DNA from: Erythrobacter litoralis | GTDB taxonomy: Bacteria; Pseudomonadota; Alphaproteobacteria; Sphingomonadales; Sphingomonadaceae | Direction: 5' to 3' | NCBI RefSeq assembly: GCF_001719165.1 | Contig: NZ_CP017057.1 | Coordinates: 620,001 to 684,000, forward strand | Length of the DNA stretch: 64,000 nt | Shown: in pieces, positions 18,409 to 44,869 of the stretch | How positions within the stretch are numbered: the first letter of the stretch is position 1 | Layout of the letters: every line of letters starts with the position of its first letter | The notes under the pieces: model-generated | Told to the model about the DNA's origin: nothing | Databases searched by the model: none | The model's input: the letters and a program-made list of their open reading frames with translations, nothing else | Made by a program: the position numbers and the translations under genes

Positions 18409-18580
18409 CTCACTCCCCAAATCGCCAGACTTCCGGACGGGCCGCGTGGTAGGGCCTGTGAAGCCCGCATTTCCGCGCGCTTTGGCGGGGTCATCTTTTC
18501 CGGTGAGGTCGCGAGACTGGCGGAGTGGGGTGTTCAGGCGGGATTTCCGGCCCCAATCTCAGGAGGCCTTTTTGCAGACC

Positions 18581-20269: not shown

Positions 20270-20666
20270 TGGCTGCCTGCCCGCGAAGTCCGAAGAAGCG
20301 CGGGCCGGACCAGTGTGTTCCAGTTACCTCACGGGCGATGGCCGAAAGCGACGGATAGTTCCTGTCGTCGAACACGAACCCGTCTTCTTCTACCAAGACT
20401 GAGATGGTCCTGCCATTCCAGCTGCGGACAAGACGTGTACCGGGCTTGATGGCCGGTCGGGCAGGCGCAGTCGTGTGCAACTCGGAGAGAGAGGCGCGCG
20501 AGAGACCCCTGTGAGCCTTCTCCTGAAGCCGATAGGCGATCCCGAGGCGGAGCAGGTCGGCCGATAGGTTGGGAGCAGGCTGCTTGCAGACCCGCTCCCA
20601 TTCCTTCCGAAGTTCTGATCGTCCCATTTGGGTGAGGGTGGCCAGTCGTTCCTTTAGCTTCACCAC
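20262..20666 (-). CDS. DUF2924 domain-containing protein
   Basis: The product is 134 aa with the DUF2924 pattern: ELRKEWERVCKQPAPNLS, LLRLGIAYRLQEKAHRGLS and a C-terminal RSWNGRTISVLVEEDGF part. The family is found almost only next to large serine recombinases and DUF3489 genes in alphaproteobacteria; its function is unknown, perhaps a recombinase accessory factor. It starts with GTG 3 nt after the DUF3489 stop and its end overlaps the recombinase start by 8 nt, so the three genes were one translationally coupled operon before the IS insertion. Confidence 0.8.
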   Translation of the reverse strand: MVKLKERLATLTQMGRSELRKEWERVCKQPAPNLSADLLRLGIAYRLQEKAHRGLSRASLSELHTTAPARPAIKPGTRLVRSWNGRTISVLVEEDGFVFDDRNYPSLSAIAREVTGTHWSGPRFFGLRGQAASG

Positions 20667-20848: not shown

Positions 20849-23286
<2,438 letters not shown>

Positions 23287-23854: not shown

Positions 23855-24691
23855 ATGCCTCCCTTAAATACTGCCGAGTGTGAGATCGACGCTGATTGTA
23901 CGGGCGAACGCTGGCAAGTTGATGATGACAACCAACTTGCAGGTTTGATCGCGATTATTGCTATGGGGCAAGCCGCGCAGGCCAGTCATATTCTCACCCA
24001 GCTTCTGCCCGCGACTCCCGCCTTCACCACCCCTGAATTGAGTGCCGAGGCGAAGATCAAGCTGACGGTTCAGGAGGAGAAGCAAACACCGCGGATAGGC
24101 TATCCGCGTTGGCAGCGGGACGGCTTCATCTTCGAGGCAATCTCGTGGATTGCTGCGCGTCAGGTGTATGGGAAATCCGCCTACATGAAAGACCCTCATG
24201 TGAGCGCCACATCACAAGGGCTCGATGGACTGATGCTGGAGTTGTCGGGCAATAAAACGCAGATCGACTGGACCACGGTCTTCGAGGACAAGTGCTCTGA
24301 CGATCCCGTTTCGACCTTTAAATACAAGGTGATTCCAGCCTTTCGGGATCGCCAAGATAACAAGAGAAGCGCAGAGATCATCGCCGCCGCGACTGCTTTG
24401 CTTGGCAGAGCAGGCATTGACGACGGAGCGGCGGCCCAGCTTGCTGCGGCTGTCACTGATCGAACCAAGCGGCGCTATCGGGCGGCCTTCGCAGTCACGA
24501 CTGCACTCGACAGCGAAGATGGCCGCAAGGAGCTTTTCGCAGGTTACAATGAGATCGGCGATATCGATCAAGCTCAGCGACTGGGTGCGTGTCTAGTCGT
24601 TCCCCCAGAATTGCGGGACTGGTTTGACCAACTCGCAGGGCTGGCAATCGCCTACATCGAAACTCTAGGTGAGGGAGAGGCCGGTGTTTGA
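23855..24691 (+). CDS. Hachiman-like HamA nuclease subunit
   Basis: The product is 278 aa. A PD-(D/E)XK-type arrangement is visible: E94 in FIFEAISW, D124 in SQGLDGLML, and E144-x-K146 in VFEDKC. This matches the layout of HamA (DUF1837), where a G-x-DG strand is followed by a strand ending ESK-like. Gene order, nuclease then a large helicase with overlapping reading frames, fits Hachiman (HamAB), a known antiphage system in which HamB restrains HamA until DNA is sensed. Overall similarity is recalled, not computed; an AbpA/AbpB-type pair is an alternative. AGAGGA precedes the ATG. The lower GC suggests transfer. Confidence 0.55.
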   Translation: MPPLNTAECEIDADCTGERWQVDDDNQLAGLIAIIAMGQAAQASHILTQLLPATPAFTTPELSAEAKIKLTVQEEKQTPRIGYPRWQRDGFIFEAISWIAARQVYGKSAYMKDPHVSATSQGLDGLMLELSGNKTQIDWTTVFEDKCSDDPVSTFKYKVIPAFRDRQDNKRSAEIIAAATALLGRAGIDDGAAAQLAAAVTDRTKRRYRAAFAVTTALDSEDGRKELFAGYNEIGDIDQAQRLGACLVVPPELRDWFDQLAGLAIAYIETLGEGEAGV

Positions 24692-27600
24692 CGCTGCTAC
24701 TGCCAGTCTGCTGCGATCTGCACCCGAGCTACCAGGCCTCGACCCTGATGAGCTCCCCGCAATCCTGACCACACACTATGCGGAACTGGCATCGATCCGC
24801 CTCAGGGGGGCTGGAGCAGAGGAAGATCAAAACGAGGGTGTTTGGAGCCTCGAACGGATTGCCGACACCTATGAGCTGGTTGTTTCGCTGCAACCGGAAG
24901 GGCCGTCCCGCGCAGCGGCGGCCTTCGTTGCAGGAACAGCCCAGCAAATCCTTGCCAGAAAGCAGGCGGCCGCAATCGCCGATGAAGAGTTGCCGCCCAG
25001 CATCGATCGTGATCGTCTTGACCCCACTTTGGCAGCGGCGGTCCTGTTCTTGGCCTCCGAGCAATATGCCGATGCCAATGAGGCTGCTGCCAATATCAAG
25101 ACGGGGCGGGCCGGACAGAGCTACGAGGCAACGATCCTCTCGGAGCACATCGTAGACCTTGCAAAGGGGCGGCTCACTCAAATTCTGGAACGCGCGGCGA
25201 GATGGCGTCGGCCCAGCGCCTACTTTGACTTGGACGATCGCGCGCTCGCGGCTTTACTGGAGGCTCTTTCCACGGGCATTGAAATGCTCGCCGCGCAAAT
25301 GCTTCGCGTGCCCGTTCCCGAGCAGACAGGTGGGAGGTTCGATGGCCCGCTACACGCATTCCAGCGCGTGCTCGCTCTCGCATCGTCTGATGATGGCCTA
25401 GCGGCCAGTGCACCCGAAGGCCTGATCGTTACATTTCCAGGGCCGTACCATCTCGCTTCCCTCTTGCTCGCCGTTGCGGGGTCGATCGCCGACGCCAGCT
25501 TGCTGAATGTCTTGGCTCCATCAGGTTCGAACGCTGAAGTCTGGGAGCAATGGCTCCGATTCCGTGCAGAAAAGTTCCCCTATGTCTGGTCCAATCACCG
25601 AGAAGCTATCGAGAGGGGCTTTCACCAGACAGGTGTCTCTTCGGTCGTCATCCTTCCGACTGGTGCTGGCAAAACGACAGTCTCGTCTTTGAAGATTGCA
25701 GGCGTGCTGGCACGCGGCAAGAAGGTTGCCTTTCTTGCGCCGACGCACGCACTCGTCGATCAGTTGACAGAGGACCTACAGGAGATGTTCCCGAGCGAGC
25801 TCTTCGGCTCGGTCGTATCAAGTGATTTTGACCTGCTTATGCAGGAAGACGCGGTATTTCAGGACATTGAGGTCATGACGCCCGAACGGTGTCTGGCCAT
25901 GCTTTCGTTTGCTCCTGATGCCTTCAAGGACGTGGGATTGCTCGTCTTTGACGAGTGCCATTTGTTGAGCCCCGAGACGGGAAAAATTCGCCGCGCTCTC
26001 GATGCAATGCTGTGCGTGCTCGGCTTTAGCCATGTCGCGCCGGATGCTGATCTTCTCTTCCTGTCCGCGATGCTCAAGAACGGTGATGAATTAGCGCTCT
26101 GGCTCCAGGAGCTCACTGGCAGGCAGGCAGTTTCGGTGGATTTGCTCTGGAAGCCGAGCCGTCAGGCAAGAGGTGTTATCATTTATGACGCCGAGCAGCT
26201 TGATGATGCCTGCGATCGTGCGCTTAAAATTCAGGATACCGAGGACAAGAAAAAGAAGAAGGAAGCGAAAGACTTGCGGGCTCCTGCGTCACGGGAACTC
26301 ACCGCAACTCCCTACGCGATATGGGGGCTCCAGCATAACTGGCTGTCTCAAGAGGAATCGACTGTTCACTGTATCACGACCCAGCTTCTCGAAAGTCAGG
26401 TAAAGCTTGGCGGACATTTGAAATACGGACCACTTCAGCTCACACCGAATGCTAATCAGGTTGCAGTCGAACTTGCCGCTGCTGCCGCCGCGCGCGGCCT
26501 CAAGACAATCGTGTTCGTCAACACAAAGCGCGATGCCATTTCCGTTGCGAATGACATTTCAGGTATCTTGCCGCTTCAGATTGACATCAGCCCGGTCGAG
26601 CAGGAACGGTGGGATGCCCTCAAGGCCGAACTCGGCGACCTGAGTCATTCCTTGCTCTCTGGGCCAGCTTCAGCGGTTCCTCACAATTCGGCCATGCTAA
26701 GACTTGAGCGAGACATCGCCGAGCGCATGTTCAAGCGGCACAACGGTGCCCAGGTTATTGTTGCCACTCCGACTTTGGCTCAGGGCCTCAATTTGCCAGC
26801 CCAGCTTGCAATTCTGGCGGGAGACAAGCGTGCCGACACTGAGAAAGGTGGTCGAGAAAGCCTCGAAGCACACGAGATTCTGAACGCCGCCGCTAGGGCG
26901 GGGCGAGCAGGTCATCTTGCCAACGGCTTGGTACTCCTCATTCCAGAGCCAATTATCTCTTTTGTCGGAGATAAGCCGCTCGACATGAAAGTCGTAGAGA
27001 AACTTCAGGCTGTTCTGCCCGAGGATGATCACTGTGTGACCGTCGCCGATCCGCTCGAAATCGTCCTCGATCGCGTGACGCAAGGTCAGATGACTGATCC
27101 CGATGTCAATTACACGATCAATCGAATGGCCGTCCTGCGCAACGCAGATGAGGCGAGCGAAGCAACGCACCTCTTCGATTTGCGCAAATCGCTCGGTGCC
27201 TTCGCAGCGAAGCAAAAGGAAGCAACAAAAGAATTTGACGCCAAGGTCGAGGCATTGAGGCAAGCCATCACAAATGAAGAGATTGATGGCGTCGATCAAA
27301 ACATTGCGGTCCTGTCATCGCAAAGCGGATTGTCTGCAAAGCTGCTGATTGACCTTAAGGCTAGGATCACTGCCGACGTCGGATCGCTGCCCACCACCGT
27401 CAGCGATTGGCTGAAGTGGATGATAAAGTGGTTTCAAGAAGACTCGAGCGCCCGGAGCGCGCTCCTGGCCGACATCACGCGCAGCATCCTGACTGCCTGC
27501 GGGAAGAGCAAGGCCGCCGAGCTAACAAACGATGATCTTGACCTTCTTCTCGAGGCTTTGATCGCCTGGGTAGATGGAAAGACCCTTCGCGATATCGAGC

Positions 27601-27935
27601 TAATCCTCGGAGGAGCACCGGATGACGAAGCCTTCACCAAGAAGACTTGTCCGCGTGCGCGGGAGCTTTCGGGCACGATAGTCCAGCGAGGCATTTCCTT
27701 TGCCATCGGTCTAATTGGCCACATGATCGAAGACGTTGATCCCTTCGAACAACAAGAAACCCTTGATCGCCAGCTAGTCGAATGTCTCGGCACGCTCGTT
27801 CGCAAGGGATTCAACGATGTTGAAATATTATTCTTCGCCACCGACAATAAAGGGCTCCTCGGGCGCGTCCAGACTCATGAGGCATGGAAGCATCGGTTCG
27901 ATGGAATGTCTGACGAAATGACCGGAAATATTTGA
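24684..27935 (+). CDS. Hachiman-like HamB superfamily 2 helicase
   Basis: The product is 1083 aa from the GTG at 24684 (GAGGGAGAGG upstream; 8-nt overlap with the nuclease gene). The N-terminal about 300 residues lack a known domain. Helicase motifs are I PTGAGKTT (325-332), Ia APTHALVDQL, II DECH (423-426), III LFLSAML, V ATPTLAQGLNLPA (about 693) and VI AARAGRAGH (about 738), a Ski2-like pattern. The C-terminus is mainly helical. In Hachiman the helicase unwinds or surveys DNA and controls the nuclease partner. A stand-alone DNA-repair helicase is unlikely given the overlap with the nuclease gene. Confidence 0.65.
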   Translation: MFDAATASLLRSAPELPGLDPDELPAILTTHYAELASIRLRGAGAEEDQNEGVWSLERIADTYELVVSLQPEGPSRAAAAFVAGTAQQILARKQAAAIADEELPPSIDRDRLDPTLAAAVLFLASEQYADANEAAANIKTGRAGQSYEATILSEHIVDLAKGRLTQILERAARWRRPSAYFDLDDRALAALLEALSTGIEMLAAQMLRVPVPEQTGGRFDGPLHAFQRVLALASSDDGLAASAPEGLIVTFPGPYHLASLLLAVAGSIADASLLNVLAPSGSNAEVWEQWLRFRAEKFPYVWSNHREAIERGFHQTGVSSVVILPTGAGKTTVSSLKIAGVLARGKKVAFLAPTHALVDQLTEDLQEMFPSELFGSVVSSDFDLLMQEDAVFQDIEVMTPERCLAMLSFAPDAFKDVGLLVFDECHLLSPETGKIRRALDAMLCVLGFSHVAPDADLLFLSAMLKNGDELALWLQELTGRQAVSVDLLWKPSRQARGVIIYDAEQLDDACDRALKIQDTEDKKKKKEAKDLRAPASRELTATPYAIWGLQHNWLSQEESTVHCITTQLLESQVKLGGHLKYGPLQLTPNANQVAVELAAAAAARGLKTIVFVNTKRDAISVANDISGILPLQIDISPVEQERWDALKAELGDLSHSLLSGPASAVPHNSAMLRLERDIAERMFKRHNGAQVIVATPTLAQGLNLPAQLAILAGDKRADTEKGGRESLEAHEILNAAARAGRAGHLANGLVLLIPEPIISFVGDKPLDMKVVEKLQAVLPEDDHCVTVADPLEIVLDRVTQGQMTDPDVNYTINRMAVLRNADEASEATHLFDLRKSLGAFAAKQKEATKEFDAKVEALRQAITNEEIDGVDQNIAVLSSQSGLSAKLLIDLKARITADVGSLPTTVSDWLKWMIKWFQEDSSARSALLADITRSILTACGKSKAAELTNDDLDLLLEALIAWVDGKTLRDIELILGGAPDDEAFTKKTCPRARELSGTIVQRGISFAIGLIGHMIEDVDPFEQQETLDRQLVECLGTLVRKGFNDVEILFFATDNKGLLGRVQTHEAWKHRFDGMSDEMTGNI

Positions 27936-27966
27936 TTTTGGAGAAGGGCTAAGTGGAAACGATTTT

Positions 27967-28518
27967 ATGATTGCCTGCTTAGGCTGGGGTTCGCTTATCT
28001 GGAGTCCACGTAATTTGCCTTTGGCAGGAAACTGGCTTGGCGATGGGCCGGAACTTCAGATTGAATTTTCGCGCGTTTCCGCTGATGGGCGATTGACCTT
28101 GGCAATAACCGAAGGCGCGAAGCCCCTCACCGTCCTTTGGGCCGAGCTGAACGTCTCGTCCATCGATCGCGGGGTGGAAGCGTTGGCCGAGCGAGAAGGC
28201 ATCTCGGAAAGGAACTTCAATTCTTCGATCGGTCTGTGGAGCAATTCACGTTGCTCTCGCCACAAAGAAACAAACCAAGTTGGTGATTGGGCTTCCCAAC
28301 GGGGTATTGAGGCAGTTATCTGGACTGCTCTGAAGCCAGGCCTCGAAAAAGATAGCAGGGGAGTGGTACCTTCGCTCAGCGATGCGTTGGGCTATTTGCA
28401 TGGCACCTCGTCAGCAGTTAGGGCCCGTGCTGAAGAATACATACGAAGAGCTCCCGCTCAGATCGTTACTGAATATCGGGCGGCAATCGAACAGGAGTTT
28501 GGCTGGGCGCCTCTTTAG
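27967..28518 (+). CDS. Gamma-glutamylcyclotransferase-like fold protein, third gene of the operon
   Basis: The product is 183 aa. It starts with CLGWGSLIW, the substrate-loop signature (YGSLIW type) of GGCT/ChaC/AIG2-like proteins. A beta-rich part follows (IEFSRVSADGRLTLAITEG), with VEALAEREG and a helical C-terminus. The fold class cyclises gamma-glutamyl peptides in characterised members, but the activity here is unknown. It follows the helicase gene by 31 nt in the same direction with no terminator between, so it is probably transcribed with it. It is not a standard Hachiman component and may be an accessory or a separate passenger. Confidence 0.55.
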   Translation: MIACLGWGSLIWSPRNLPLAGNWLGDGPELQIEFSRVSADGRLTLAITEGAKPLTVLWAELNVSSIDRGVEALAEREGISERNFNSSIGLWSNSRCSRHKETNQVGDWASQRGIEAVIWTALKPGLEKDSRGVVPSLSDALGYLHGTSSAVRARAEEYIRRAPAQIVTEYRAAIEQEFGWAPL

Positions 28519-28573
28519 GACTTGCCCCGGGGGCCTCACCTTATCTCAGAGAGTGGCCGACACCTCATTCCAC

Positions 28574-28587
28574 TTAACATAAAATCA
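28574..28587. repeat. 14-bp direct repeat, left boundary of GHKL-Z1 cassette
   Basis: TTAACATAAAATCA, identical in sequence and orientation to 36171-36184. It lies between the GGCT-like gene and vsr. The two copies enclose exactly vsr to the Z1 gene. Confidence 0.6.
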
Positions 28588-28629
28588 GTTGTGATCCTTC
28601 CGATAGGCGATTTTCGGCCCTCGCCGAGC

Positions 28630-29049
28630 CTATTGTTTTCGTAGCCATTCGGTTAGGTCCGCCAATCTGGCTTGAGCATCCTCCTTGAGCTCGCATTCCC
28701 AGACTGTGTTGACCCTCCAACCCATTCTGGTGAGGTCTGCCTCGCAGCGGTTGTCCCTCTCGACATTTGCTCGGAACTTCTCGCTCCAAAATTCAGCATT
28801 CGATTTCGGGGTGGTCGCATAGCGACAATCCTGATGGCGGTGCCAGAAGCAGCCGTGAACGAAAACTGCTGCCCGGTATCTTGGCAGGACTATGTCTGGC
28901 TGGCAGGGAAGATCCCTCCTTTTCCTCAGGGAGTAGCGGAATCCCACCGCATGCAGATATTTTCTGACGAGAAGCTCGGGCTTCGTGTTGCCCGAGCGGA
29001 TGCCCGCCATCATCCTCGATCTCGCTTCTTTTGAGACGATATCTGCCAT
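28630..29049 (-). CDS. vsr: Very short patch repair endonuclease Vsr
   Basis: The product is 139 aa from the ATG at 29049. D52 in QPDIVLP, H65 in VFVHGCFW and H70 in WHRH align in spacing with the catalytic Asp51, His64 and His69 of E. coli Vsr; a Cys/His-rich zinc-site region follows (HRHQDCRY). It nicks 5' of T in T:G mismatches created by deamination of 5-methylcytosine. It is divergent from the C5 methyltransferase gene (41 bp apart), whose mutagenic effect it would counter. Vsr is a frequent partner in these modification cassettes. Confidence 0.92.
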   Translation of the reverse strand: MADIVSKEARSRMMAGIRSGNTKPELLVRKYLHAVGFRYSLRKRRDLPCQPDIVLPRYRAAVFVHGCFWHRHQDCRYATTPKSNAEFWSEKFRANVERDNRCEADLTRMGWRVNTVWECELKEDAQARLADLTEWLRKQ

Positions 29050-29090
29050 TTTGACCTGGTAGCCGAGCAAAGACCTGGTAAGAAACCCTC

Positions 29091-30605
29091 ATGACATCAA
29101 ATTCGGTCTTCCGCACGATAGATCTCTTCGCCGGCCCCGGCGGCCTCGCAGAAGGTTTCTCGACCTGCGAGGCTGGCGATACCCAATTCAAAGTTGCGCT
29201 TTCTGTAGAGAAGGATCCGGGGGCGTTTCGAACTCTTCGCCTTCGAAGCTTCTTCCGTAATCTCAACGACTCCGGTCGCGACGACTATTTCCGATTTGCC
29301 AATGGTGAACTCTCGGAAGAGGAGCTGATCAATCGACATCAGGGGGCCTGGGCGAAAGCGGAAGACGAAACCGCCATGCTCGAGCTCGGAAATCCCGAAC
29401 ATGACCGGGAGCTCGACAAACGGCTGGATGCTCTTCTCGAAGATGACACGGACAACTTCGTGGTCATAGGGGGGCCGCCGTGTCAGGCTTATTCGCTGGC
29501 CGGAAGATCCAGAAACGCTGGCAACATCGAATATGTTGCGGAACAGGACCACCGTCATTTTCTGTTTCGAGAGTACATTCGCATCCTCGAGAAGGTCCGG
29601 CCGCGCGCATTTGTGATGGAGAACGTGAAGGGGATCCTCTCGTCCTCCCTTTCCGGCGGCAAGATCTTCGAGCTAGTCAGGCGTGACCTGATGAACGCGG
29701 CGGGCAAGGGCAGCTACGAACTTTTCTCGCTTTCGCCCGATCCGGACAAGGCCGGATATGTTCTGCGGGCCGAGGAGTACGGCGTCCCCCAGGCGAGGCA
29801 CCGCGTCATCCTGCTGGGCCTCAGAACTGATGTTGCAGACTGCTTCGCTTCCACGAATGCCTGCCTCACCAAGTCGGACGAATTCGTGACTGTTGGCGAG
29901 GCGCTAAATGACCTCCCTTCGCTGCGAAGCGGATTAAGCCGTGGCGAAGACAGCTTCGAACTCTGGAAAGAGGCTGTTGCCGAGGCCTTCTCTATAGCGG
30001 CAAAGGCAGCACCACGCTGCTCGAAACTCCGCGCTCGACTTGAGGTACACGGGAAAGAGATACTTGGCCGCAACGACGCGAGGCGAACGTCGGCGGACTA
30101 TGGCGCAAAACCAGGTTCTGATTACGCAAGTGGCCTCCGTGATCCTCGCCTTAAGGGCCCACCCAATCATGATACGCGGGGGCATATGCGCTCCGATCTT
30201 GCCCGCTACGCCTTCTGTTCTACCTTTGCCGAACTCGAAGGGCGTGCCCCGTCGTCCCGGGACTTCCCCGAAGCGCTGGCTCCTGATCATCAAAGCTGGA
30301 GCACGGGAAAGTTCGCCGATCGCTTCAAAGTTCAGGTCGAGACAAAGCCTTCATCGACAATCACCAGCCATATATCGAAGGACGGCCATTACTTCATCCA
30401 TCCGGATCCCACACAGTGCCGGAGCCTCACAGTGCGTGAGGCGGCACGGCTCCAGAGTTTCCCGGACGACTATATTTTCCTCGGAAACCGAACCTCTCAA
30501 TATGTCCAGGTCGGCAATGCGGTCCCGCCCTTGCTCGCGAGGCAGATTGCAAAAGTACTCGGACGTCTGTTGTCGAAGGATAACGGGCAGGTGAAGGCTG
30601 CTTAA
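29091..30605 (+). CDS. C5-cytosine DNA methyltransferase (Dcm family)
   Basis: The product is 504 aa. Motif I is DLFAGPGGLAEGF (11-23), motif IV GGPPCQAYSLAGRS with catalytic C131, motif VI ENVK (177-180), motif VIII QARHRVILLG, then a long target-recognition region and motifs IX/X (PSSTITSHIS and VGNAVPPLLA). It transfers a methyl group from SAM to cytosine C5 within a specific site that cannot be read from sequence. It is a large member, with an about 60-residue insert between motifs I and IV. It precedes the GHKL-DUF4420-Z1 genes by 116 nt, so it likely supplies self-protection. Confidence 0.93.
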   Translation: MTSNSVFRTIDLFAGPGGLAEGFSTCEAGDTQFKVALSVEKDPGAFRTLRLRSFFRNLNDSGRDDYFRFANGELSEEELINRHQGAWAKAEDETAMLELGNPEHDRELDKRLDALLEDDTDNFVVIGGPPCQAYSLAGRSRNAGNIEYVAEQDHRHFLFREYIRILEKVRPRAFVMENVKGILSSSLSGGKIFELVRRDLMNAAGKGSYELFSLSPDPDKAGYVLRAEEYGVPQARHRVILLGLRTDVADCFASTNACLTKSDEFVTVGEALNDLPSLRSGLSRGEDSFELWKEAVAEAFSIAAKAAPRCSKLRARLEVHGKEILGRNDARRTSADYGAKPGSDYASGLRDPRLKGPPNHDTRGHMRSDLARYAFCSTFAELEGRAPSSRDFPEALAPDHQSWSTGKFADRFKVQVETKPSSTITSHISKDGHYFIHPDPTQCRSLTVREAARLQSFPDDYIFLGNRTSQYVQVGNAVPPLLARQIAKVLGRLLSKDNGQVKAA

Positions 30606-30721
30606 TCAATCTCGCTGCTCGCCGTTCGCTGCAAGTGCATATCTTCTCTATATTTTTAGCATACGGCCATTGATTTTGGTGATGTGACGGGACATTCTCC
30701 GAAGCAATTTCCGGGGGTCTC

Positions 30722-32239
30722 TTGCCAATCAATTTCAGTTTCTCTTTTTCAAAGTCGAGAAGCATCAAGCGACACAAGCTGTTGCCGGATCCGAAGAGGA
30801 CCCGCGAAGCAATGGCTCGCATCGGCTATTCCCTCGAGGAAGCCGTTTCTGATCTGGTCGACAATTCAATCGACGCGAAAGCGGACAGTATTCTGATCCG
30901 CTTTGTGCGAAACGAAAAAATTGTAACGGGACTGATGGTCGCCGACGATGGCCATGGAATGTCGCGGGACGAACTTCTTGCGGCTATGAAATTTGGGTCG
31001 GAAAATCTTCACGACAGAGAAGATCTGGGCAAATTCGGCATGGGTATGAAATTGGCTTCAATCAGCCAATGCTCTGCCATGACTGCCATCACGAGGCAGG
31101 GCGGGAAGGTTCATGCAATGAGGTGGACCAATTCGTCCATCGATAGCGACTGGCATTGCGAGGAGATAGATCCTGCAGAGGTCGGTCAGGTTCTGTCTTC
31201 CGATTGGCTGGGGATGGATGTCGATGACTGTGGCACGATCATTGTCTGGGAAGATCTGTATGATTTTTCTCGTCTTCCAGGAGAACCCGATAAGGCCATA
31301 AGTGATGCTTCTTCGCGGCTTTCCGAACACCTAGGGCTGGTATTTCATCGCTTTCTCGAACGAGGCCTGAATTTGAAGATCGGCGCAGTTGTTCAGGTGA
31401 CTGGAGATACCGGCATTGAAACGCCGGTGGTTGCACTCAACCCGTTCAGCTACAAGGCAACAGGTTCTCCCGGCTACCCGAAGGAGTTCATCGTCAACCT
31501 CAGCGACATCGGATCTCTGACGATGAAGGCACATATATGGCCGGCCAAGTCGCGGGACCCTGGTTTTCGCCTCGGCAAAGGCAAAGTTGCAGAACGGCAA
31601 GGTTTCTACTTCTACAGAAACGACAGGCTCATACAGGCCGGAGGCTGGAACTGGGTTCTGAACGCACAGGCGGAGCCTCACATGAGTCTTGCACGTGTAC
31701 AGGTCGATCTACCACCCGAGTACGATCACGCCTTCTCGGTCAACGTACAAAAGTCGCAAATCGATGTGCCAAGAACCTTTCCTGAGGAGGTGCGAAAGTC
31801 GGAGTCCGGGGACAAGAAGTTCACTCAATACCTGGCTGATGCACAAAGCGCTTACCGGGATGCCGGAAGCAAAGAGACAGATTTCCCCCTAGTCATCGGA
31901 TCTGGAGTTCCTCCAGCTGTCCGTTCAAAATCCAGAAAAGCCTTCAAGGACGAATCTGGTTCATACAGGGAAGTCGAGTTCACATGGGCAAAGCTGCCCA
32001 AGAGCCTCTTCTTCAAAGTAGATCCAGAACGCCAGCGGATCCTGTTGAACAAGGAATATCGAAGAGCAGTCCTGAACGGTAAAAGGGCTTCCGCGAACGA
32101 CGCCCCGTTGGTCAAGGCCCTGCTATTTCTTCTGGCTTCCGGTGACATTGACAAGAAGCGAATAACCAAGGGGCATCAGCAGTGGCTTGATGCCTGCAAT
32201 CAAATTCTACTGAGCGCAGTTGGAGATGCCGATCAATGA
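30722..32239 (+). CDS. GHKL (MORC/MutL-like) ATPase of modification-dependent defence cassette
   Basis: The product is 505 aa from a TTG start preceded by GGGGG. The GHKL nucleotide-binding motifs are N48 in VSDLVDNSIDAKA, DDGHGMS (75-81) and GKFGMGMK (103-110). A second domain of MutL/MORC type follows, with a conserved FYFYRNDRLIQAGGWN-like strand. Comparative genomics by the Aravind group linked such bacterial GHKL ATPases with C5 methylases, Vsr, restriction-fold and Z1 proteins. It probably acts as an ATP-driven clamp or switch for the nuclease partner. It overlaps the next gene by ATGA. Confidence 0.85.
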   Translation: MPINFSFSFSKSRSIKRHKLLPDPKRTREAMARIGYSLEEAVSDLVDNSIDAKADSILIRFVRNEKIVTGLMVADDGHGMSRDELLAAMKFGSENLHDREDLGKFGMGMKLASISQCSAMTAITRQGGKVHAMRWTNSSIDSDWHCEEIDPAEVGQVLSSDWLGMDVDDCGTIIVWEDLYDFSRLPGEPDKAISDASSRLSEHLGLVFHRFLERGLNLKIGAVVQVTGDTGIETPVVALNPFSYKATGSPGYPKEFIVNLSDIGSLTMKAHIWPAKSRDPGFRLGKGKVAERQGFYFYRNDRLIQAGGWNWVLNAQAEPHMSLARVQVDLPPEYDHAFSVNVQKSQIDVPRTFPEEVRKSESGDKKFTQYLADAQSAYRDAGSKETDFPLVIGSGVPPAVRSKSRKAFKDESGSYREVEFTWAKLPKSLFFKVDPERQRILLNKEYRRAVLNGKRASANDAPLVKALLFLLASGDIDKKRITKGHQQWLDACNQILLSAVGDADQ

Positions 32240-33216
32240 GTGGTGTCACCGCCCTTCTCGACTGGTCGCAAGTGGCGGCTGACCTCACCGGATCAGGCCC
32301 GATTACATACCAGCTGGACCCCGGTTCGCAGCTGGTTCTCTCGGTAGATCCAAAAAGGGATATGATGGTGCTCAATGTGGTCCTCCATCCCAACGATCCC
32401 ACTCCGGAGCTAGCCAAATTCAAATTTGTTATGGTGCAGAGGGTCACGCATGGGGGAAAGCAATACCTACGTCTCGAAGTCGATGACAAAGATCTTTTCG
32501 TCGAGTTCTTCAATTTTTCGAAGACGGTAGCCGACAATGTAGTGGACGGAGCTTCCGCATACGCTGCACTTCTGGATACTATCGGGTCCTTCAACAGGCT
32601 TTTCAGCAGCGAGGGATCGATAACCGAGGAATCCCGGGTCGGACTGATAGGTGAACTCTGGGTTCTCAAGCAGCTGATCGACGAATTCGGAGAGGATGCA
32701 GTCAAATGCTGGATGGGGCCCAAGAAAGACGCCCACGATTACAGATTTGATGACGCGGAACTGGAGGTCAAGACGACAAGATCGGCCGGTCGCGAGCACA
32801 AGATTTCCAGGATCGATCAATTGCAGGAGTCACCGGGGAAAAAGCTCTTCCTGCTGTCGATCCAGCTTGTCGAAACTCCGAACGACAAGTCCTTGGCGGT
32901 AACAACCTTGGTATCGATAATCCGCGGTCACCTGGGAGATCAAAGTCTGCTTCAAACCTTCAACGAGAAACTGGCCAAGTGGTTGCCAAAGGAAATCGAA
33001 GATGGGGTCGATGAAGGTAGTCCACTGTATCAGTTGAGAAGCGAACCGGCGTTGATGGAGGTAAATGACAGCTTCCCCAGACTTATTCCCAAATCCTTGG
33101 AGCTGCTCTCCGCCCATCAGAAGGACGGCAGAATAACGGGACTTGAATACTCTATAGATGTCACAGGGATGGGAAGCCCTGTCAGCGACGGGAAGATCCA
33201 TGCAAAACTCAAATGA
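32236..33216 (+). CDS. DUF4420 PD-(D/E)XK nuclease-fold protein
   Basis: The product is 326 aa. The active-site pattern of this restriction-fold family is E140 in VGLIGELWVLKQL, D168 in KKDAHDYRF, and E177-x-K179 in AELEVKTT. It is the likely DNA-cleaving subunit of the cassette. Its start overlaps the GHKL stop (ATGA), and its end overlaps the Z1 start by 17 nt, so the three proteins are translationally coupled and probably form a complex. Catalytic residues look intact. Confidence 0.85.
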   Translation: MSGVTALLDWSQVAADLTGSGPITYQLDPGSQLVLSVDPKRDMMVLNVVLHPNDPTPELAKFKFVMVQRVTHGGKQYLRLEVDDKDLFVEFFNFSKTVADNVVDGASAYAALLDTIGSFNRLFSSEGSITEESRVGLIGELWVLKQLIDEFGEDAVKCWMGPKKDAHDYRFDDAELEVKTTRSAGREHKISRIDQLQESPGKKLFLLSIQLVETPNDKSLAVTTLVSIIRGHLGDQSLLQTFNEKLAKWLPKEIEDGVDEGSPLYQLRSEPALMEVNDSFPRLIPKSLELLSAHQKDGRITGLEYSIDVTGMGSPVSDGKIHAKLK

Positions 33217-36085
33217 AACGGGTCCCAGTTTGAACGATTGGGAGGATCTTCTTGACGCTTCGTTCGCGTCAATGAAGCCGATTCCGCTATCTCTGGAAAA
33301 GTCACTCGCGGGCAACGCCATGGCACGCGGCCTTGAGGCCGGCTTGTTCCCCGTCAGCCAACTGCAGCCGCTATTGGCCGCTGCAGGCGCGAATGACCGT
33401 CTGACCAGGATATTCCGGAAGTTTGTCAATCACTGGGATTATCTGGACCACCAGAACTGGATGGAGGGCACCATCGCGGGCTCCCAACAGAGAAGGCGAG
33501 TCCTTTATCGCGTTCTGGGCATCGATGAAGGTCTTTGCGAGGCAATCAATGCTGCCTTTCCGTGCTCTCCCTTGCTGGACCCGACAATCATCGCCGAAGA
33601 ACATGAGCAGTGGTACACTACAGAAATCGAAGCAGGCCATAGCTACTACATGGACGAGTATCTAGAGCAGCTTACGGAGAGGCAGAACTTCCCGGAGAAG
33701 AGCGCAAAGGCGCTGGAAATTGCTTCAAGAGAGATCGTAAGTAGGCTGTCAGACCCGACCCGCAAGGAGGCCTATCAGACAAAAGGTCTAGTGGTGGGCT
33801 ATGTGCAGAGCGGCAAGACATCAAACTTCGCCGGTGTGATTGCTAGGGCTGCGGACGCGGGATATCGGCTGATCATTGTCCTTGGCGGAACCATCAACAT
33901 CTTGAGAGACCAGACGCAATTTCGTCTGGATCGGGATGTGGTCGGTTTCGAGATGGTCGACGATGACTATGACGGCATCGCAGATACGGACAAGTTCCTG
34001 AGGCATGGAGCGCGACCTTCCGAATTGGGCTACTTTGACTGGCAGCGACTGACCGGCCCAAAGTACGACTACAAGGAACTCAAACGGGGTATCGATGCAC
34101 TCGAGTTTGAACGACGGGACCTAGGCAAACCCTTCTTCCACCCAGACAACCTCCACCCTTCCAAGGCTCGCCTGATTGTTATCAAGAAGAGCCCACCAAT
34201 AATGAAGAAGGTCATTTCAGACCTGAAGAAGATCAAATCGAAATTGGAGGACATTCCTGCTCTCATCATCGATGACGAGTCCGATCAGGCATCCATAAAT
34301 ACCTTGCATCCAACTCTGGCTGGAAGACAAAAGCGGACGGCGACCAACGGCAGAATTGTCGAGTTGCTGGGTTTGCTGCCCAGAGCCCAATATGTGGGAT
34401 ACACGGCAACGCCGTACGCGAACGTCTTCATCAATCCGGCAGATGCTGAAGATCTCTTCCCGAAGGACTATGTTCTAAGTCTGCCCAAACCCGACAGCTA
34501 CATGGGGCCGCAGGAGTTTCTTAAGTCCTACGTCGACGATGGCGATGAGCAGTTCAGTCCTCAAACCCACCCATATATCAGATCGGTAGAGGGCGCTGAC
34601 GAGAAGGAGGAAAATCTTCTCAAAGCCATCGACAGCTATCTCCTCGCGGGTGCGCTGAAACTGTACAGAGAGCAAGAAGACAAGGAACTTCGATTCCGGC
34701 ATCATACCATGCTGGTTCATCATTCACCGTTCAAAATCGTCCACGACGAAGTGGCAGAACTTGTCAATGATACCATTGCCAACGGGGGTTATCGGTCCGG
34801 CCCTGGCTTGAGGCGATTGAAGGACTTGTTCGAAAACGACGTCCGAATTGTCAGTCAAAAGGAAGCTCCAGACCTGCCGTTCCCGTCCGATTTTGAGGAT
34901 CTCAGGAAACACATCGGTACATGTTACGCACGTGTCTTCGCTGACGGGGGCCCCTGCATAATTCTCAACGGCGACCACAAGGACGACGAGCCAAACTTCG
35001 AGGCTCAGAATGTCTGGAAGATTGTGATTGGGGGTGCAAAACTGTCCAGGGGTTATACAATCGAGGGCCTAACAGTGAGCTACTTCAGGCGCACCTCTTC
35101 GGTAGCCGACACTATGATGCAGTTCGGTCGCTGGTTCGGGTACAGGAGCGGCTACAACGACCTCGTTAGGCTGTATATTGGGACGGATGAGAGTTTCGGA
35201 AAAGAGACCCTGAATCTCTACGAAGCTTTTTCGGCCATGTCGCTGGACGAGATCGACTTCCGCAAGGAACTCGAGCGATATGCCAAACTCGACGAAAAGA
35301 TCACCCCGAAGCAGATTCCTCCGCTGGTCTCCAGCCATCTCTTGCTCCCCACTGCAAAGAACAAGATGTTCAATGCGAAACTGGAGTATGAGAACCTTGG
35401 TGGGAGATACCTCGAGAAGGGCGTCGCTCCAAAAATTGGATCCAGTCAGAAGAACAACTTCGAAAGCTTTGTAAATTTCCTCGAGACTTGCGACTTTGGT
35501 GAAGGAAAGCGGAATCTGGAATTCGATGGCAGTGCATTCGATGCATATGTGGCTATATCTCCGAAGACCTACGTCATCGAGCTCTTGCGCTCGCTGCAAT
35601 GGCCATCAACAAGTCAAAGCCCGGTGGGAGCATTGATCGAGTTTCTCGAAGGCAGAATCATCGACCCGGAAATCGATGACATTGCCATCATCGTTCCTCA
35701 GCTTGTGCGGTCACCGCAAGGCAACATCGATATAGGCGGCCACAGCTTTTCAGTTGCCCACCGCGCAAGAGTCGACGCGACTAGGTACGGGGTATTCTCT
35801 GAGCCGAGACACCGTCCAGTCGCCAACTATATCTCGGGCGGAAAGGCCGATGGCGAGGCAGGAGATCTCGTAAAGGCCCTTAAGAAGCCGCGAAGGGGAG
35901 CGATGCTGATCTATCCGGTAATCGACAAGAATAAGGAGATCGCCGCGACGGGCATGATAGCTCACAATGCAACTTTCGGGTTCGCTTTCCACCTTCCTAA
36001 CAACAGCCATCATGACACTCTCGCGAAGTTTGGTGTAAGGGAGCAGCACAAAAGCAGCGAGGTCGTGGTCGCAAATGCAGGTTGA
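33200..36085 (+). CDS. Z1-domain superfamily 2 ATPase/helicase-like protein
   Basis: The product is 961 aa. The ATG at 33200 (GGAAG upstream) is chosen over an upstream in-frame start inside DUF4420. Walker A is GYVQSGKTS (200-208), Walker B DDESD (358-362), motif III GYTATPYANVF (about 400-410), then the Z1 signature GGAKLSRGYTIEGLTVSYF with QFGRWFGYR (641-649) as motif VI. Z1 proteins accompany MORC-like GHKL ATPases and restriction-fold nucleases. It is presumably the DNA translocase or sensor of the system. The C-terminal about 250 residues have no recognised domain. Confidence 0.88.
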   Translation: MQNSNETGPSLNDWEDLLDASFASMKPIPLSLEKSLAGNAMARGLEAGLFPVSQLQPLLAAAGANDRLTRIFRKFVNHWDYLDHQNWMEGTIAGSQQRRRVLYRVLGIDEGLCEAINAAFPCSPLLDPTIIAEEHEQWYTTEIEAGHSYYMDEYLEQLTERQNFPEKSAKALEIASREIVSRLSDPTRKEAYQTKGLVVGYVQSGKTSNFAGVIARAADAGYRLIIVLGGTINILRDQTQFRLDRDVVGFEMVDDDYDGIADTDKFLRHGARPSELGYFDWQRLTGPKYDYKELKRGIDALEFERRDLGKPFFHPDNLHPSKARLIVIKKSPPIMKKVISDLKKIKSKLEDIPALIIDDESDQASINTLHPTLAGRQKRTATNGRIVELLGLLPRAQYVGYTATPYANVFINPADAEDLFPKDYVLSLPKPDSYMGPQEFLKSYVDDGDEQFSPQTHPYIRSVEGADEKEENLLKAIDSYLLAGALKLYREQEDKELRFRHHTMLVHHSPFKIVHDEVAELVNDTIANGGYRSGPGLRRLKDLFENDVRIVSQKEAPDLPFPSDFEDLRKHIGTCYARVFADGGPCIILNGDHKDDEPNFEAQNVWKIVIGGAKLSRGYTIEGLTVSYFRRTSSVADTMMQFGRWFGYRSGYNDLVRLYIGTDESFGKETLNLYEAFSAMSLDEIDFRKELERYAKLDEKITPKQIPPLVSSHLLLPTAKNKMFNAKLEYENLGGRYLEKGVAPKIGSSQKNNFESFVNFLETCDFGEGKRNLEFDGSAFDAYVAISPKTYVIELLRSLQWPSTSQSPVGALIEFLEGRIIDPEIDDIAIIVPQLVRSPQGNIDIGGHSFSVAHRARVDATRYGVFSEPRHRPVANYISGGKADGEAGDLVKALKKPRRGAMLIYPVIDKNKEIAATGMIAHNATFGFAFHLPNNSHHDTLAKFGVREQHKSSEVVVANAG

Positions 36086-36170
36086 TCGAAACGTGGGAAT
36101 TGGCCGCCGTAATTGACAACTCGTTCCAGCCGATCCTCTGCGACTGCGATATCGGGAGATCGACCCCCTT

Positions 36171-36184
36171 TTAACATAAAATCA
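36171..36184. repeat. 14-bp direct repeat, right boundary of GHKL-Z1 cassette
   Basis: TTAACATAAAATCA, second copy of the repeat at 28574-28587, 85 bp after the Z1 stop and before the next, oppositely oriented gene. Confidence 0.6.
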
Positions 36185-36285
36185 CTTCACACGCTGGTTC
36201 GTGAGGCGGTTCCTTGATGTCCTGCCTTATTGCAATGCGGGGCAAGTGCTCCCCGTTTGTTCATTTTCCCAGGATGCGGTTCGGG

Positions 36286-36801
36286 TCAGGTTGCCGGTCT
36301 CTCGGAGCGAGGAAAATCTGCCAGAGCCATGGCTGCCACTCTTTGTGCTTCGATGAATGCTTTTGGGTCAGGGCCAGTATCGACGCCAAGCTCTTGCGCC
36401 TCGCGACAGATATTCTCGACCGCAAGTTCCGACAGGTCGCGCTGATCGGTACGGACAACCAGCACAGTTATGATCGGCATCTTGTGAGTGACGCAGTAAG
36501 CTACGACCCTGGTCAATGCATTGGCTACGGCTTTCTGGGTGGCGTTGCCTTTCCATGGCTGGCCGGGGCTGATCCGGTTCCACAATTCTCCGTAGGTCGT
36601 CAGATTGTCCTCAGAGGCCCTCGCAAGTTCGACAATCGCCTTGGCTACGGCCACCGGATCAAGGGCGCTGGGCGTCCGTCTCAAACTCTCCAGACGGACC
36701 TCGGCCAAGCTGTAGGGCCCGCCCACTTCAACACCGTTCGCTAGATAGTTCTTCTCGAGGTTCGTCAGCTGCTTATCGGACAAACTGGAAATATCTGGCA
36801 T
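36286..36801 (-). CDS. Hypothetical protein with TYGEL-type motif
   Basis: The product is 171 aa. AGGAGA lies 7 nt before the ATG at 36801. An N-terminal region (about 1-50) is followed by TTYGELWNRISPGQPW, then VANALTRVVAYCVTHKMP and IITVLVVRTD, and a helical C-terminus. The TYGEL...LPxxTxLVV pattern is recalled from small proteins of mobile and defence regions, but I cannot name the family with confidence. No signal peptide or membrane segment. It stands between the GHKL-Z1 cassette and the DUF5681 gene, all lower in GC than the chromosome. Confidence 0.6.
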   Translation of the reverse strand: MPDISSLSDKQLTNLEKNYLANGVEVGGPYSLAEVRLESLRRTPSALDPVAVAKAIVELARASEDNLTTYGELWNRISPGQPWKGNATQKAVANALTRVVAYCVTHKMPIITVLVVRTDQRDLSELAVENICREAQELGVDTGPDPKAFIEAQRVAAMALADFPRSERPAT

Positions 36802-36980: not shown

Positions 36981-37406
36981 CTAGCTCTGGTGACAATCGA
37001 GATCGCTGTCGAAATCCACGCCATGCACCTTCGATAGCAATTTCGTAAAATCTTCAAGTTCTTCGTCGGTTAGGACAGTCAGGTCTGCAGGAGGCGGTAG
37101 GTCATCCTGCTGAAAGAAGTCTGCTAGCTCCTTGAATGCCTGCATGGCAACACTTGGTGGACCGCGAAGAGCGAGGTCGATCAAGCGCATGATCATTGCT
37201 TCTGTCACTGCAACCTTCCTCGTTTCTCCAGCCATCTTGATCGTCGTCTTCTTCTGGAGGTTCTCCTGCATGAGTGTCTTGAGGCCCTTGGTTCCCTTGC
37301 GCTTGCCTCTGGGGTTTCCCGAGCGACCGGGCTGAAATCGGGTGTGCTTGGGCGGTTTGCCATAACCGACCTCATATGCGCCCTTGTTCTCATCACTGTC
37401 AGCCAT
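36981..37406 (-). CDS. DUF5681 domain-containing protein
   Basis: The product is 141 aa from the ATG at 37406. The N-terminal VGYGKPPKHTRFQPGRSG NPRGKRKG stretch is the hallmark of DUF5681, a short basic domain of phage-like and integrated elements. A helical part and an acidic tail follow. Its start overlaps the end of the ParB-methyltransferase gene by 8 nt, so the two are translated together. Function unknown; it often neighbours phage packaging or modification genes. Confidence 0.75.
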   Translation of the reverse strand: MADSDENKGAYEVGYGKPPKHTRFQPGRSGNPRGKRKGTKGLKTLMQENLQKKTTIKMAGETRKVAVTEAMIMRLIDLALRGPPSVAMQAFKELADFFQQDDLPPPADLTVLTDEELEDFTKLLSKVHGVDFDSDLDCHQS

Positions 37407-38733
37407 GGAGAGCCCCCTTTGTCCACGCGGTCGCGTTAGAAGGTTCGGAAGCTTCATCGACGTTGAATGGATTGCCGGTCTCCACGTTGATGGGCACCTT
37501 GCCGGTCACTTGCCAGAAGCGTTTCAGGCACACATCGACGTAGATCGGGTCGAGCTCGATCGCCCTGCAGCGCCGGCCAGTTCTTTCTGCAGCGATGATG
37601 GTGCTGCCCGAACCACAGAAGGGATCAAGCACTATGTCCTTCCTTGCGGAACAATCCAGTATTGCGTCAGCTACCATGGCAACCGGTTTGACCGTGGGGT
37701 GCATTGCAAGCTTCTCGTCGCGGCCGCGCTGGAAGCTGTTTACACCTTCATATTCCCACACATTAGTTCTGTAGCGGCCATGCATGCCCAGCTGGACGTT
37801 GTTTCGGTGCCTTGCGTTCCCCGATTTGAACACTGCGACCAGCTCGTGGCGGGATCGGTACAGGCTGCCCATGCCACCATTGGGCTTTACCCAGACACAG
37901 ATATTCTTGAGCTCCAGCCTCGTCGATTTGCCGGCCTCAATCAGGCTTTCGATATGCCGCCAGTCCATGCATACGAATTGGATAGCACCGAGTTCGCTGA
38001 AGCGGCTCATCAATTGACAGGACCTCGAGAGGAATTCGCGAAACTGGGCGTCAGACATTTCCCCCGAGGCCTGCACAAATTCGCGATGCCTGGTCTTGCC
38101 TAGTCCGGAGACATGTCCCTGGACCGGCACATTGTACGGCGGGTCTGTGAACGTGACATTGGCCTTACGATCCTGCAGCAGTCGCCGATATGAAACTTCA
38201 TCGAGTGCATCGCCACAAAGGAGCAGATGATCGCCAAGCTGCCAGAGGTCCCCGAGTTTAGCCTGAGGCATACCAGCGAGCGGCTCGGGGATCTGATCAT
38301 CGATCGCATCATCTTGATCGTCCGGCTCGAGCAACAAATCTATCTCGGCCATCTCGAAACCGATATCTGTGATCTCGAATTCAAGCTCGGTATCAAGCAG
38401 TCCCTGAAGTTCGATCGCGAGGATCTCCCGGTCCCAACCCGCGAGTTCCGCCAGCCGGTTATCTGCGATGGCATAGGCCCTGACTTGGGCAGGGGTGAGA
38501 TGATCAAGCCTGATTGTCGGGACCGAAACCAGACCGAGTATTCGAGCAGCCCTGAGCCTTCCGTGACCGGCTACGACCTTCCTGCTTGAGTCTATGAGAA
38601 TGGGGTTGTTGAAACCGAAGCGCTCAATCGATGTCGCAATCTGTGCGATCTGCTTGTCGCTGTGAGTGCGAGCGTTCGCAGGGTCCAACTTCAGGTCTGA
38701 AGGAGGAAGAGTTTCAATCTGAAGGTCATTCAT
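37399..38733 (-). CDS. ParB-domain fused DNA methyltransferase (beta-class N4/N6)
   Basis: The product is 444 aa. The N-terminal ParB-like domain (about 8-110) carries the VAGHGRLRAA box. The C-terminal methyltransferase has motif IV TDPPYN (DPPY 197-200) before motif I LDPFCGSGST (370-378), the beta-class order, with HPTVKPVAM as motif X. It modifies adenine N6 or cytosine N4 in DNA. Such fusions are common in phages and integrated elements as orphan methylases. The ATG at 38733 is preferred; an upstream start would add 5 residues. It is the first gene of the pair with DUF5681. Confidence 0.88.
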   Translation of the reverse strand: MNDLQIETLPPSDLKLDPANARTHSDKQIAQIATSIERFGFNNPILIDSSRKVVAGHGRLRAARILGLVSVPTIRLDHLTPAQVRAYAIADNRLAELAGWDREILAIELQGLLDTELEFEITDIGFEMAEIDLLLEPDDQDDAIDDQIPEPLAGMPQAKLGDLWQLGDHLLLCGDALDEVSYRRLLQDRKANVTFTDPPYNVPVQGHVSGLGKTRHREFVQASGEMSDAQFREFLSRSCQLMSRFSELGAIQFVCMDWRHIESLIEAGKSTRLELKNICVWVKPNGGMGSLYRSRHELVAVFKSGNARHRNNVQLGMHGRYRTNVWEYEGVNSFQRGRDEKLAMHPTVKPVAMVADAILDCSARKDIVLDPFCGSGSTIIAAERTGRRCRAIELDPIYVDVCLKRFWQVTGKVPINVETGNPFNVDEASEPSNATAWTKGALHG

Positions 38734-39437
38734 CGGTCGCCATCCCAATCGTTGGTGTGCGACTCGATTTTACTGCCAGATTTTTAATCGGCCTAGGTTC
38801 GGATGCCAGAAAGTTCCTGGAATGTTCATTTTCCGTTCATTGCCGACCAAAGGCTCCTGCGAAGCCAATTCCCTGCTTTTCCCATAAATTCCCTGCACGG
38901 GTTCCCAGGGAAATGAGCTTCCAAGTGACTGTTTTCATTTGAGACAATAGCGTGAGAAGTGTCTGGAGCAGCTTGGTTCTTTGCAAATTCCCTGCAAAGC
39001 AGGGAAAAAACGCCAGAGCACAGTCCGCTCAGGACTGCGTCGCGCACCACGCATCTGTTTCCAGACATTCCCGGAAGCCCTGAAATTCGGCCGTTTTTGC
39101 GGGATACATCGGTTCCCGGCGGCACTCTTTGGTCCTGCTGGTGCCCCCAGAAATCATAACGGCAACCGCGTGCGCGTCCGCGACCTCGCGCGGCGGACGG
39201 GAGCCCAGGCGCGGCGCGGGTGAGCGAAGCGCAGCGGGAGGCCAATCGCGCACGGCGCCAGCGCCGCGGGGCGAGCCCGGTGCTTGCGCGGCTGCAGCCG
39301 GTCGATGCGCAGCGGGCGGCTGCGAGCAGGGCCGACGCGCTCGTCCGTTCTCGCACGGCATCGCGGACGCAGGGTACGAAGAACCCGCCCCCGGTGCCTC
39401 GCGCGTGGGCCGTCAGAAGCGTCTCGCACGCATCCTG
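38734..39437. other. Right border region of the island, no confident gene
   Basis: The left part is AT-rich and carries three copies of AATTCCCTGC (38867-38876, 38887-38896, 38986-38995); the third is an arm of the inverted repeat TTCCCTGC-AAA-GCAGGGAA (38988-39006). From about 39010 composition becomes GC-rich and chromosomal. A GTG-initiated frame at 39220-39438 encodes an Arg/Ala-rich 72-residue sequence without recognisable homology and may be a gene remnant. The stretch probably includes the island junction. Confidence 0.4.
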
Positions 39438-42393: not shown

Positions 42394-42678
42394 GCCGCGC
42401 GTCGGGAATTGTGGCAGAGAGTGTCCGCGTGCGGTCCGGCATGGCGCTTCTTCGGGCGACGCGAACTGCCGCGTGCCCTCTGCGGTTCGCGAAATCGGCA
42501 TTGGTGGCGCCATTTCAATAAGATAGTCGATCGGCTCCCGGGGCATCAGCTGAAAGGCAGGTCTGGGCGAACATTTCTTGCAGTCCGCCCGTCCGGTGTT
42601 CGGCGCACGCCATGTTGTCGCTTATGAACGAAACTGGCTGGAGCAGGACATTCCGGCGATCCGCCATGTCGCTGGCTG
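42394..42678. other. Convergent intergenic region
   Basis: Lies between the HTH-TPR gene and the end of ktrA. Short open frames exist on both strands but none has homology, a ribosome-binding site or a codon bias that I would trust. No terminator hairpin with a T tract was seen. Confidence 0.4.
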
Positions 42679-43338
42679 TCAGATGGCCGAGAAACGTTCG
42701 ATTTTCTCGATGCGGCCCGACACCACGAGTTCGTCGCCGGGGAAGATGATCGTGTCGGGCACGGCGTGGATGAAGTCCTCGCCAGCACGCTTGACACCGA
42801 CCACAGTCACGTCGTGCTTTTTGCGGCACTGGCTCGTTATCAGCGGCAGGCCCACGATCGGCTCGGGCGCCTTCAATCGCGCGATCGCGAACTCGTCCCC
42901 GAAGCTGATGAAGTCGAGGAGGCGTTCGTTGACGAGATGCGCGACGCGTTCGCCCATCTTCTGTTCGGGAAAGACGACGTGATGCGCCCCGGTGCGCTCG
43001 AGTATGCGGCCATGGCGCTCAGTGTTGGCCTTGGCCCAGATGTTCGGTAGCCCGAGATCAACCAGCGCGAGGACGGTGAGAAGGCTTGCCTCGATCGCGC
43101 TGCCGATGGCGACGACACCGGTCTCGAACTCCGCAGCGCCGAGGCTGCGCAAGGTGTCGGTGTCGGTGCTGTCCGCCTCGACCGCCTGGGTAAGCACGTC
43201 CTTGTGTGCGCGCACGGTATCGGGGTCGGTATCGACACCGAGCACCTCGTGGCCCATGCGTTCCAGCGTGCAGGCGACCGCGCTGCCGAAGCGGCCGAGA
43301 CCGATGACGATGACGGGTTGGCGTCGTTCAGCCGACAA
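42679..43338 (-). CDS. ktrA: KtrA/TrkA-family potassium uptake regulatory subunit
   Basis: The product is 219 aa from a TTG at 43338, chosen because GAGGAG lies 7 nt upstream inside the end of ktrB; a longer in-frame start lies wholly within ktrB. The RCK_N domain begins VIVIGLGRFGSAVA (nucleotide-binding glycines, about 10-23), with GVDTDPDTV and VEADSTD; a C-terminal RCK_C domain spans about 140-215. The cytoplasmic octamer gates KtrB in response to ATP/ADP or NAD(H). It overlaps ktrB by 11 nt, so it is coupled. Confidence 0.9.
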   Translation of the reverse strand: MSAERRQPVIVIGLGRFGSAVACTLERMGHEVLGVDTDPDTVRAHKDVLTQAVEADSTDTDTLRSLGAAEFETGVVAIGSAIEASLLTVLALVDLGLPNIWAKANTERHGRILERTGAHHVVFPEQKMGERVAHLVNERLLDFISFGDEFAIARLKAPEPIVGLPLITSQCRKKHDVTVVGVKRAGEDFIHAVPDTIIFPGDELVVSGRIEKIERFSAI

Positions 43339-44656: not shown

Positions 44657-44869
44657 CGCCAGTCCATTGGCCTTCCTAGAGAAGGATGGCAACATCTCCG
44701 CTTCGGAGCCGAAACCTGAAGAGCAGATTTCTCGTAATCGCGGCCATGGGTGGTGCCTCGGCGTTCATTACGTCGATCGGGGATTTACGGAGAGACCCCG
44801 CGACTACAAGCGCGGCAAAACCGATCATCCGGCGTTCAGGGGCCGATGCAATCCGTTCGCTCCAGCCGG

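Follow-up and report, generated by a model that had tools for sequence, protein, structure and literature searches.

Integrative elements of the IMEX type depend on the Xer system of the host, carry no recombinase of their own and are bracketed by dif-like direct repeats. SCC-type islands are built of tandem modules with short direct repeats between them. In a dif site, the centre bases are the part that must match for strand exchange. The site consists of two 11-bp arms and a 6-bp centre, and the XerD arm is the more conserved one (PMC6449649). PMC6449649 and PMC12907356 describe the dif modules (pdif) of Acinetobacter as integrase-less gene modules arranged in arrays between Xer sites, on plasmids and on the chromosome; the pdif sites are 28 bp long, and conservation is higher in their XerD arm than in their XerC arm. 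PMC12907356 and PMC7399989 report Xer modules in Acinetobacter, chromosomal arrays among them. How whole anti-phage systems without a recombinase are transferred between strains is largely unexplained. Here we describe a window of 64,000 nucleotides from Erythrobacter litoralis (NZ_CP017057.1, positions 620,001 to 684,000) that contains a recombinase-less, Mza-like defence block bracketed by an exact 14-bp direct repeat. The repeat, with the bases around it, looks like a degenerate dif site and is referred to below as the seam.

The defence block and its bracketing repeat

The Mza-like block occupies positions 28,588-36,170. Together with other modules it makes up a composite defence island of 20.6 kb, which is located at the 3′ end of tRNA-Thr(CGT). 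Its proteins were profiled with Pfam, PADLOC and NCBIfam, and all five have profile matches. The block and its ends comprise:

28574-28587, plus strand, left copy of the 14-mer (dif-like site 28572-28599)
28630-29070, minus strand, vsr endonuclease
29091-30605, plus strand, C5 cytosine methyltransferase
30722-32239, plus strand, GHKL ATPase, MzaB-like
32236-33216, plus strand, DUF4420 PD-(D/E)XK nuclease, MzaD-like
33230-36085, plus strand, open reading frame (ORF) 3′ of the DUF4420 nuclease gene, inside the block
36171-36184, plus strand, right copy of the 14-mer (dif-like site 36169-36196)

By its gene content, this is a defence system of the known MZA/MORC type. In comparison with MZA (mzaABCDE), homologues of MzaB, MzaC and MzaD co-occur, with PADLOC and NCBIfam matches for all three that are below the NCBIfam equivalog cut-offs, while MzaA (sigma-like) and MzaE (AIPR) are not found in the five ORFs scanned between the repeats. 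The GHKL ATPase stands together with a methylase, Vsr, a PD-(D/E)XK nuclease and a helicase-like partner. This neighbourhood agrees with that of MORC/paraMORC-type restriction systems, as the original prediction had proposed, with the GHKL protein known here from Pfam, PADLOC and NCBIfam profiles only. None of the five ORFs of the block encodes a recombinase. Once inserted, the Mza-like genes would be expected to work as an MZA-type, modification-linked anti-phage system.

The two copies of TTAACATAAAATCA have the same strand orientation, and the window has no further site with up to 2 mismatches. Each copy is flanked by convergent gene ends. The exact direct repeat around the cassette and its position outside the coding frames are thus confirmed. 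The 14-mer is also not common in the genome, a point that the original prediction had left to be checked: the 3,251,353 bp contain exactly two copies, and the reversed control gives 0. There are 133 repeated 14-mers in the window, and only TTAACATAAAATCA has at least 11 A/T; such a repeated 14-mer was produced by none of 60 order-3 Markov simulations.

The likeness to dif is partial. Nine bp of the 14-mer correspond to an XerD-type arm and the other five to centre bases, of which a dif site has six. The central 6 bp at the two ends are AATCAG and AATCAC, equal at five positions. A dif-like pattern search in the genome gives three sites, at 2,248,762 (2 mismatches), at the left copy and at 1,627,983 (3 each). 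The last one is taken as the genome's own dif, since it lies where the GC skew switches, with 8 of 8 20-kb windows positive on the left and 8 of 8 negative on the right. This chromosomal candidate lies at C1:1627983-1628007 and has the XerD-side arm TTATGTAAAAT. GC skew is positive in the last 20 kb of the contig as well, which does not fit a replication origin placed simply at base 1. The XerD-type arm of both copies matches own dif at 9 of 11 positions and the dif candidate of a congener, G363, chosen on form alone, at 10 of 11. When arms are scored out of 22 arm bases, with the G363 arms as reference, both copies reach 16/22 and are the top two positions in the window. Over 1.23 Mb (38% of the genome) four positions score 16/22: both copies, own dif and one chance site. 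Both copies are therefore as near to the G363 site as own dif is. The second arms of own dif and the G363 site agree with each other at 6 of 11 positions, and the other five seam sites described below are uninformative on this arm because the search partly imposed their TT. Taken together, the seam has the look of a degenerate dif site, in which an XerD-type arm and a weak XerC-type arm enclose a 6-bp spacer.

The seam in related genomes

The exact 14-mer was searched in a family sample of 298 genomes and is found in three of them, namely own genome, G180 of the same genus, and G068, where it falls within an open frame of 496 codons, apparently for a transporter. All 114 genomes of the genus, own included, were searched with the 21-mer CACTTAACATAAAATCASTTC at up to 3 mismatches. 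This gives 7 sites in 6 genomes, each single except for the two in the window. The exact 14 bp occur at four loci in other species; G323 holds them despite 3 mismatches in the 21-mer. At five of the six seam loci, ARAGORN identifies a tRNA upstream, in the same orientation and within about 11.3 kb: tRNA-Thr in the window's genome (G000), G180 and G404, tRNA-Arg in G305 (seam 0.55 kb past it) and tRNA-Leu in G323 (about 11.3 kb past it). In G309, the seam adjoins a tRNA-3′-like end that is not called by ARAGORN. A serine recombinase is located on the tRNA side of the seam in five of the six loci, the exception being G305, where the seam is 2.9 kb from a contig end. We regard the seam as a short recombination seam that a few species of the genus carry, usually as a single copy, in their tRNA-anchored islands.

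A search for the 14-mer next to other defence cassettes had also been suggested. Defence genes are adjacent to the seam in G000 and G180. In G180, a C5-methylase ORF starts about 0.15 kb from the seam and is followed by Vsr, 52% identical to that of the window, and an MvaI/BcnI nuclease. ABC-3C genes are 1.6-5.2 kb off the seam in G323. The islands of G180 and G404 occupy the same tRNA-Thr as that of the window. They are 78.5% identical to each other from the tRNA to the stop codon of a small tyrosine recombinase, where the similarity stops; the cargo is unlike, and the seam is alike again (79% over 63 bp). This small tyrosine recombinase follows the serine recombinase module in both islands (G180 L009 and G404 L103; Phage_integrase in G180), and the ORFs beside it are presumably DUF3489-like.

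An empty site with one copy of the 14-mer had been predicted. The G180 and G404 islands hold one copy at the same tRNA and are consistent with this, although they differ from the window in both cargo and flanks.

Proposed site-specific insertion and its alternatives

Our leading proposal, which we hold tentatively and at less than an even chance, is that the Mza module was inserted site-specifically at the dif-like seam, with XerCD as the leading enzyme. A pre-existing seam in the tRNA-Thr island would serve as the entry point, and conservative site-specific recombination there would leave one 14-mer at each end of the module. Three recombinase classes are at hand: the serine recombinase of the island, absent tyrosine integrases of the hotspot, and host XerCD, which is presumed present. 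Host XerCD is the leading candidate because the seam resembles a degenerate dif site; the module has no recombinase, and the host pair would act on it in trans. Movement of the cassette as a unit by site-specific or homologous exchange within a defence hotspot, as first proposed, is partly supported. The uniqueness of the repeat to the block ends, the island junctions, the single copies in relatives and the partial likeness to dif are observed; that the insertion took place at the seam, by recombination rather than by accretion of islands, and through XerCD is inferred.

Several observations weigh against the insertion proposal. In no genome are the two outer flanks of the window joined around one 14-mer, and the 171-aa gene on the right-hand side is matched in none of the genus's other 113 genomes. 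When outer flanks are compared with the single-copy sites, most results are not significant: the left flank gives p=0.021 (G309) and 0.015 (G323), while the other eight comparisons give p=0.11-0.88; inner flanks give p=0.17-0.81. With up to 3 mismatches allowed, the reversed-pattern control for CACTTAACATAAAATCASTTC gave 9 matches; the sites in G309 and G323, which have 3 mismatches each, therefore depend on context. Base composition does not jump at the 14-mers. As for the likeness to dif, the site at 2,248,762 is better than the left copy by pattern, and its arms score 14/22. With the arms of own dif, the left copy scores 16/22 and is the window best, while the right copy scores 14/22 and is tied with three other window positions; over the 1.23 Mb, the score of the left copy is reached by two chance positions as well, and the right copy is one of 42 at 14. 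The XerC side lacks the conserved inner TTAT (TTGT and TTCA are found instead) and matches at 5-7 of 11 positions. The second arm has a joint p of 0.002-0.003 for both copies, but 0.04 once the TT start is granted. The dif score is not decisive by itself. Finally, the seam is missing from 18 other serine-recombinase regions, each 7-20 kb long, an observation that also counts against the accretion of islands considered next.

It is possible, if somewhat doubtful, that successive islands accumulated at the same tRNA-Thr through serine or tyrosine integrases. The 14-mer would then be a conserved distal (attR-side) arm, and the Mza module what is left of an older island after loss of the integrase and the near end. 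The tRNA-Thr is indeed a hotspot: several congeners repeat about 46-49 bp of its 3′ end farther downstream, and G309 and G339 each do so three times, which indicates tandem islands there. Other congeners have single partial copies downstream. CCAC adjoins the seam at four of its seven sites, as often at a tRNA 3′ end, and the seam is on the cargo side of the recombinase in all five recombinase-bearing loci. The right copy in the window, however, has no CCAC, and the distal end of the window island (39044) has no 14-mer. The window recombinase shares 45-47% identity with its counterparts in G180, G404 and G309, yet 12-14 of the 14 seam bases are equal. This low identity and the distal end without a 14-mer make the serine recombinase of the island a less likely owner of the seam.

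A further reading takes the 14-mer for a short dispersed repeat or a regulatory element, flanking the module by chance and without a role in movement; we consider this unlikely. The left flank in G180, G305, G404 and G309 opens with what resembles a short repeat (GTCCGCT...) also present at other places in the genus, G180 and G305 have 111 bp in common around the site, and the left copy coincides in part with a weak promoter-like match. The right copy has no such match, no Rfam family is found at the seam sites, and 7 sites in 114 genomes, tied to tRNA islands, are few for a dispersed element. The GTCCGCT repeat is followed by a GRCCCA-like stretch where it recurs (L220, L223, L224, L225 and L227) and is faced by GCGGAC in L224 and L225. 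Exact short direct repeats around a block are also what a transposon would leave as a 14-bp target-site duplication, its transposase having since been lost. This is highly improbable: the five ORFs scanned between the repeats include no transposase, the window has no close copy of the 14-mer in inverted orientation, and random target duplication does not explain the exact 14 bp at four loci in other species.

The composite island and its relation to known systems

Outside the block, the island contains the following features:

18333-18408, plus strand, tRNA-Thr(CGT), island anchor (ARAGORN)
18403-18409, plus strand, attL-like core GCACCAC, tRNA 3′ end
18581-20269, minus strand, large serine recombinase with Resolvase and Recombinase domains (best NCBIfam match CcrB, below cut-off)
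20262-20666, minus strand, DUF2924 protein
20849-23253, minus strand, IS21-type element (IstB 20849-21700; IstA-like ORF 21682-23253, weak below-cut-off matches)
23855-28518, plus strand, Hachiman-like block (278-aa ORF; HamB-like helicase 24669-27935; 183-aa ORF 27967-28518)
36286-36801, minus strand, 171-aa ORF (no match in Pfam, PADLOC or NCBIfam)
36981-38748, minus strand, DUF5681 ORF (36981-37457) and ParB/N6-N4 methyltransferase (37399-38748)
39044-39050, plus strand, attR-like core GCACCAC (39044-39156 directly adjoins the tRNA in G322)

The two GCACCAC cores are 20,634 bp apart. In the congener G322, which has a single copy of the core, the tRNA-Thr directly joins sequence that matches 39,044-39,156 (113 bp, 93.8%); from the core, 107 of the first 120 bases are identical. 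The two genomes diverge beyond 39,156, and the remaining 59 kb of G322 that were compared have no match to the window. The locus thus shows a junction at a tRNA 3′ end, a short core repeat, an internal recombinase and an island-free relative that matches up to 39,156, and the island type is ordinary. The original prediction took the modules beside the Mza block for separate insertions; they are instead parts of one island stretch, because the island spans from the tRNA core to the core at 39044 and holds all of them. Among relatives with listed matches to both, window positions 42,600-45,600 are not adjacent to the tRNA-Thr match, and the sequence to the right of the mapped junction may include remains of older islands. 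The three cargo blocks have a G+C of 0.54-0.56, compared with 0.65 in the flanks. The IS21-type element has a host-like G+C (0.646) within this low-G+C island and is apparently a late insertion into the recombinase module. The HamB-like helicase block is a possible divergent Hachiman-type system; its 278-aa ORF has no HamA profile match and its 183-aa ORF no match. A DUF5681 and ParB/N6-N4 methylase pair is near the distal end in both this island and that of G180 (L008:8788-10592).

If docking at a dif-like seam is true, module exchange would need no mobile-element enzyme, only a housekeeping enzyme of most bacteria, and searches with the docking sequence could reveal defence modules not seen so far. 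Even if the Xer reading fails, a composite defence island is described with mapped junctions, an island-free relative and a short seam that is directly testable. In a broader form, which we think rather improbable, tRNA-anchored islands of some Erythrobacteraceae would carry a docking site made of an XerD half-site and a fixed spacer (AATCAG/AATCAC) unlike that of chromosomal dif, at which host XerCD would swap recombinase-less defence cassettes in trans, as a defence counterpart of the Acinetobacter dif modules. Among open-licence papers, no account was found of a defence cassette enclosed by such a seam in these bacteria.

The large serine recombinase recalls SCC-type islands through its best NCBIfam match, CcrB, but this match has 148 bits against a curated cut-off of 900. 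The anchor is tRNA-Thr rather than the rlmH attachment of SCC, and the 14-mer is absent from the recombinase-side end. The block shares with IMEX elements the lack of a recombinase and the dif-like direct repeats at its ends, but it is not at chromosomal dif, which is about 1 Mb off and has another spacer. The block resembles the pdif modules of Acinetobacter as a recombinase-less module between dif-like sites with a stronger XerD than XerC arm. It differs from them in the direct orientation of its sites, inverse orientation being mentioned in the title of a work cited in the pdif literature, and in the weak XerC arm, the 7.6-kb defence cargo and the alphaproteobacterial host.
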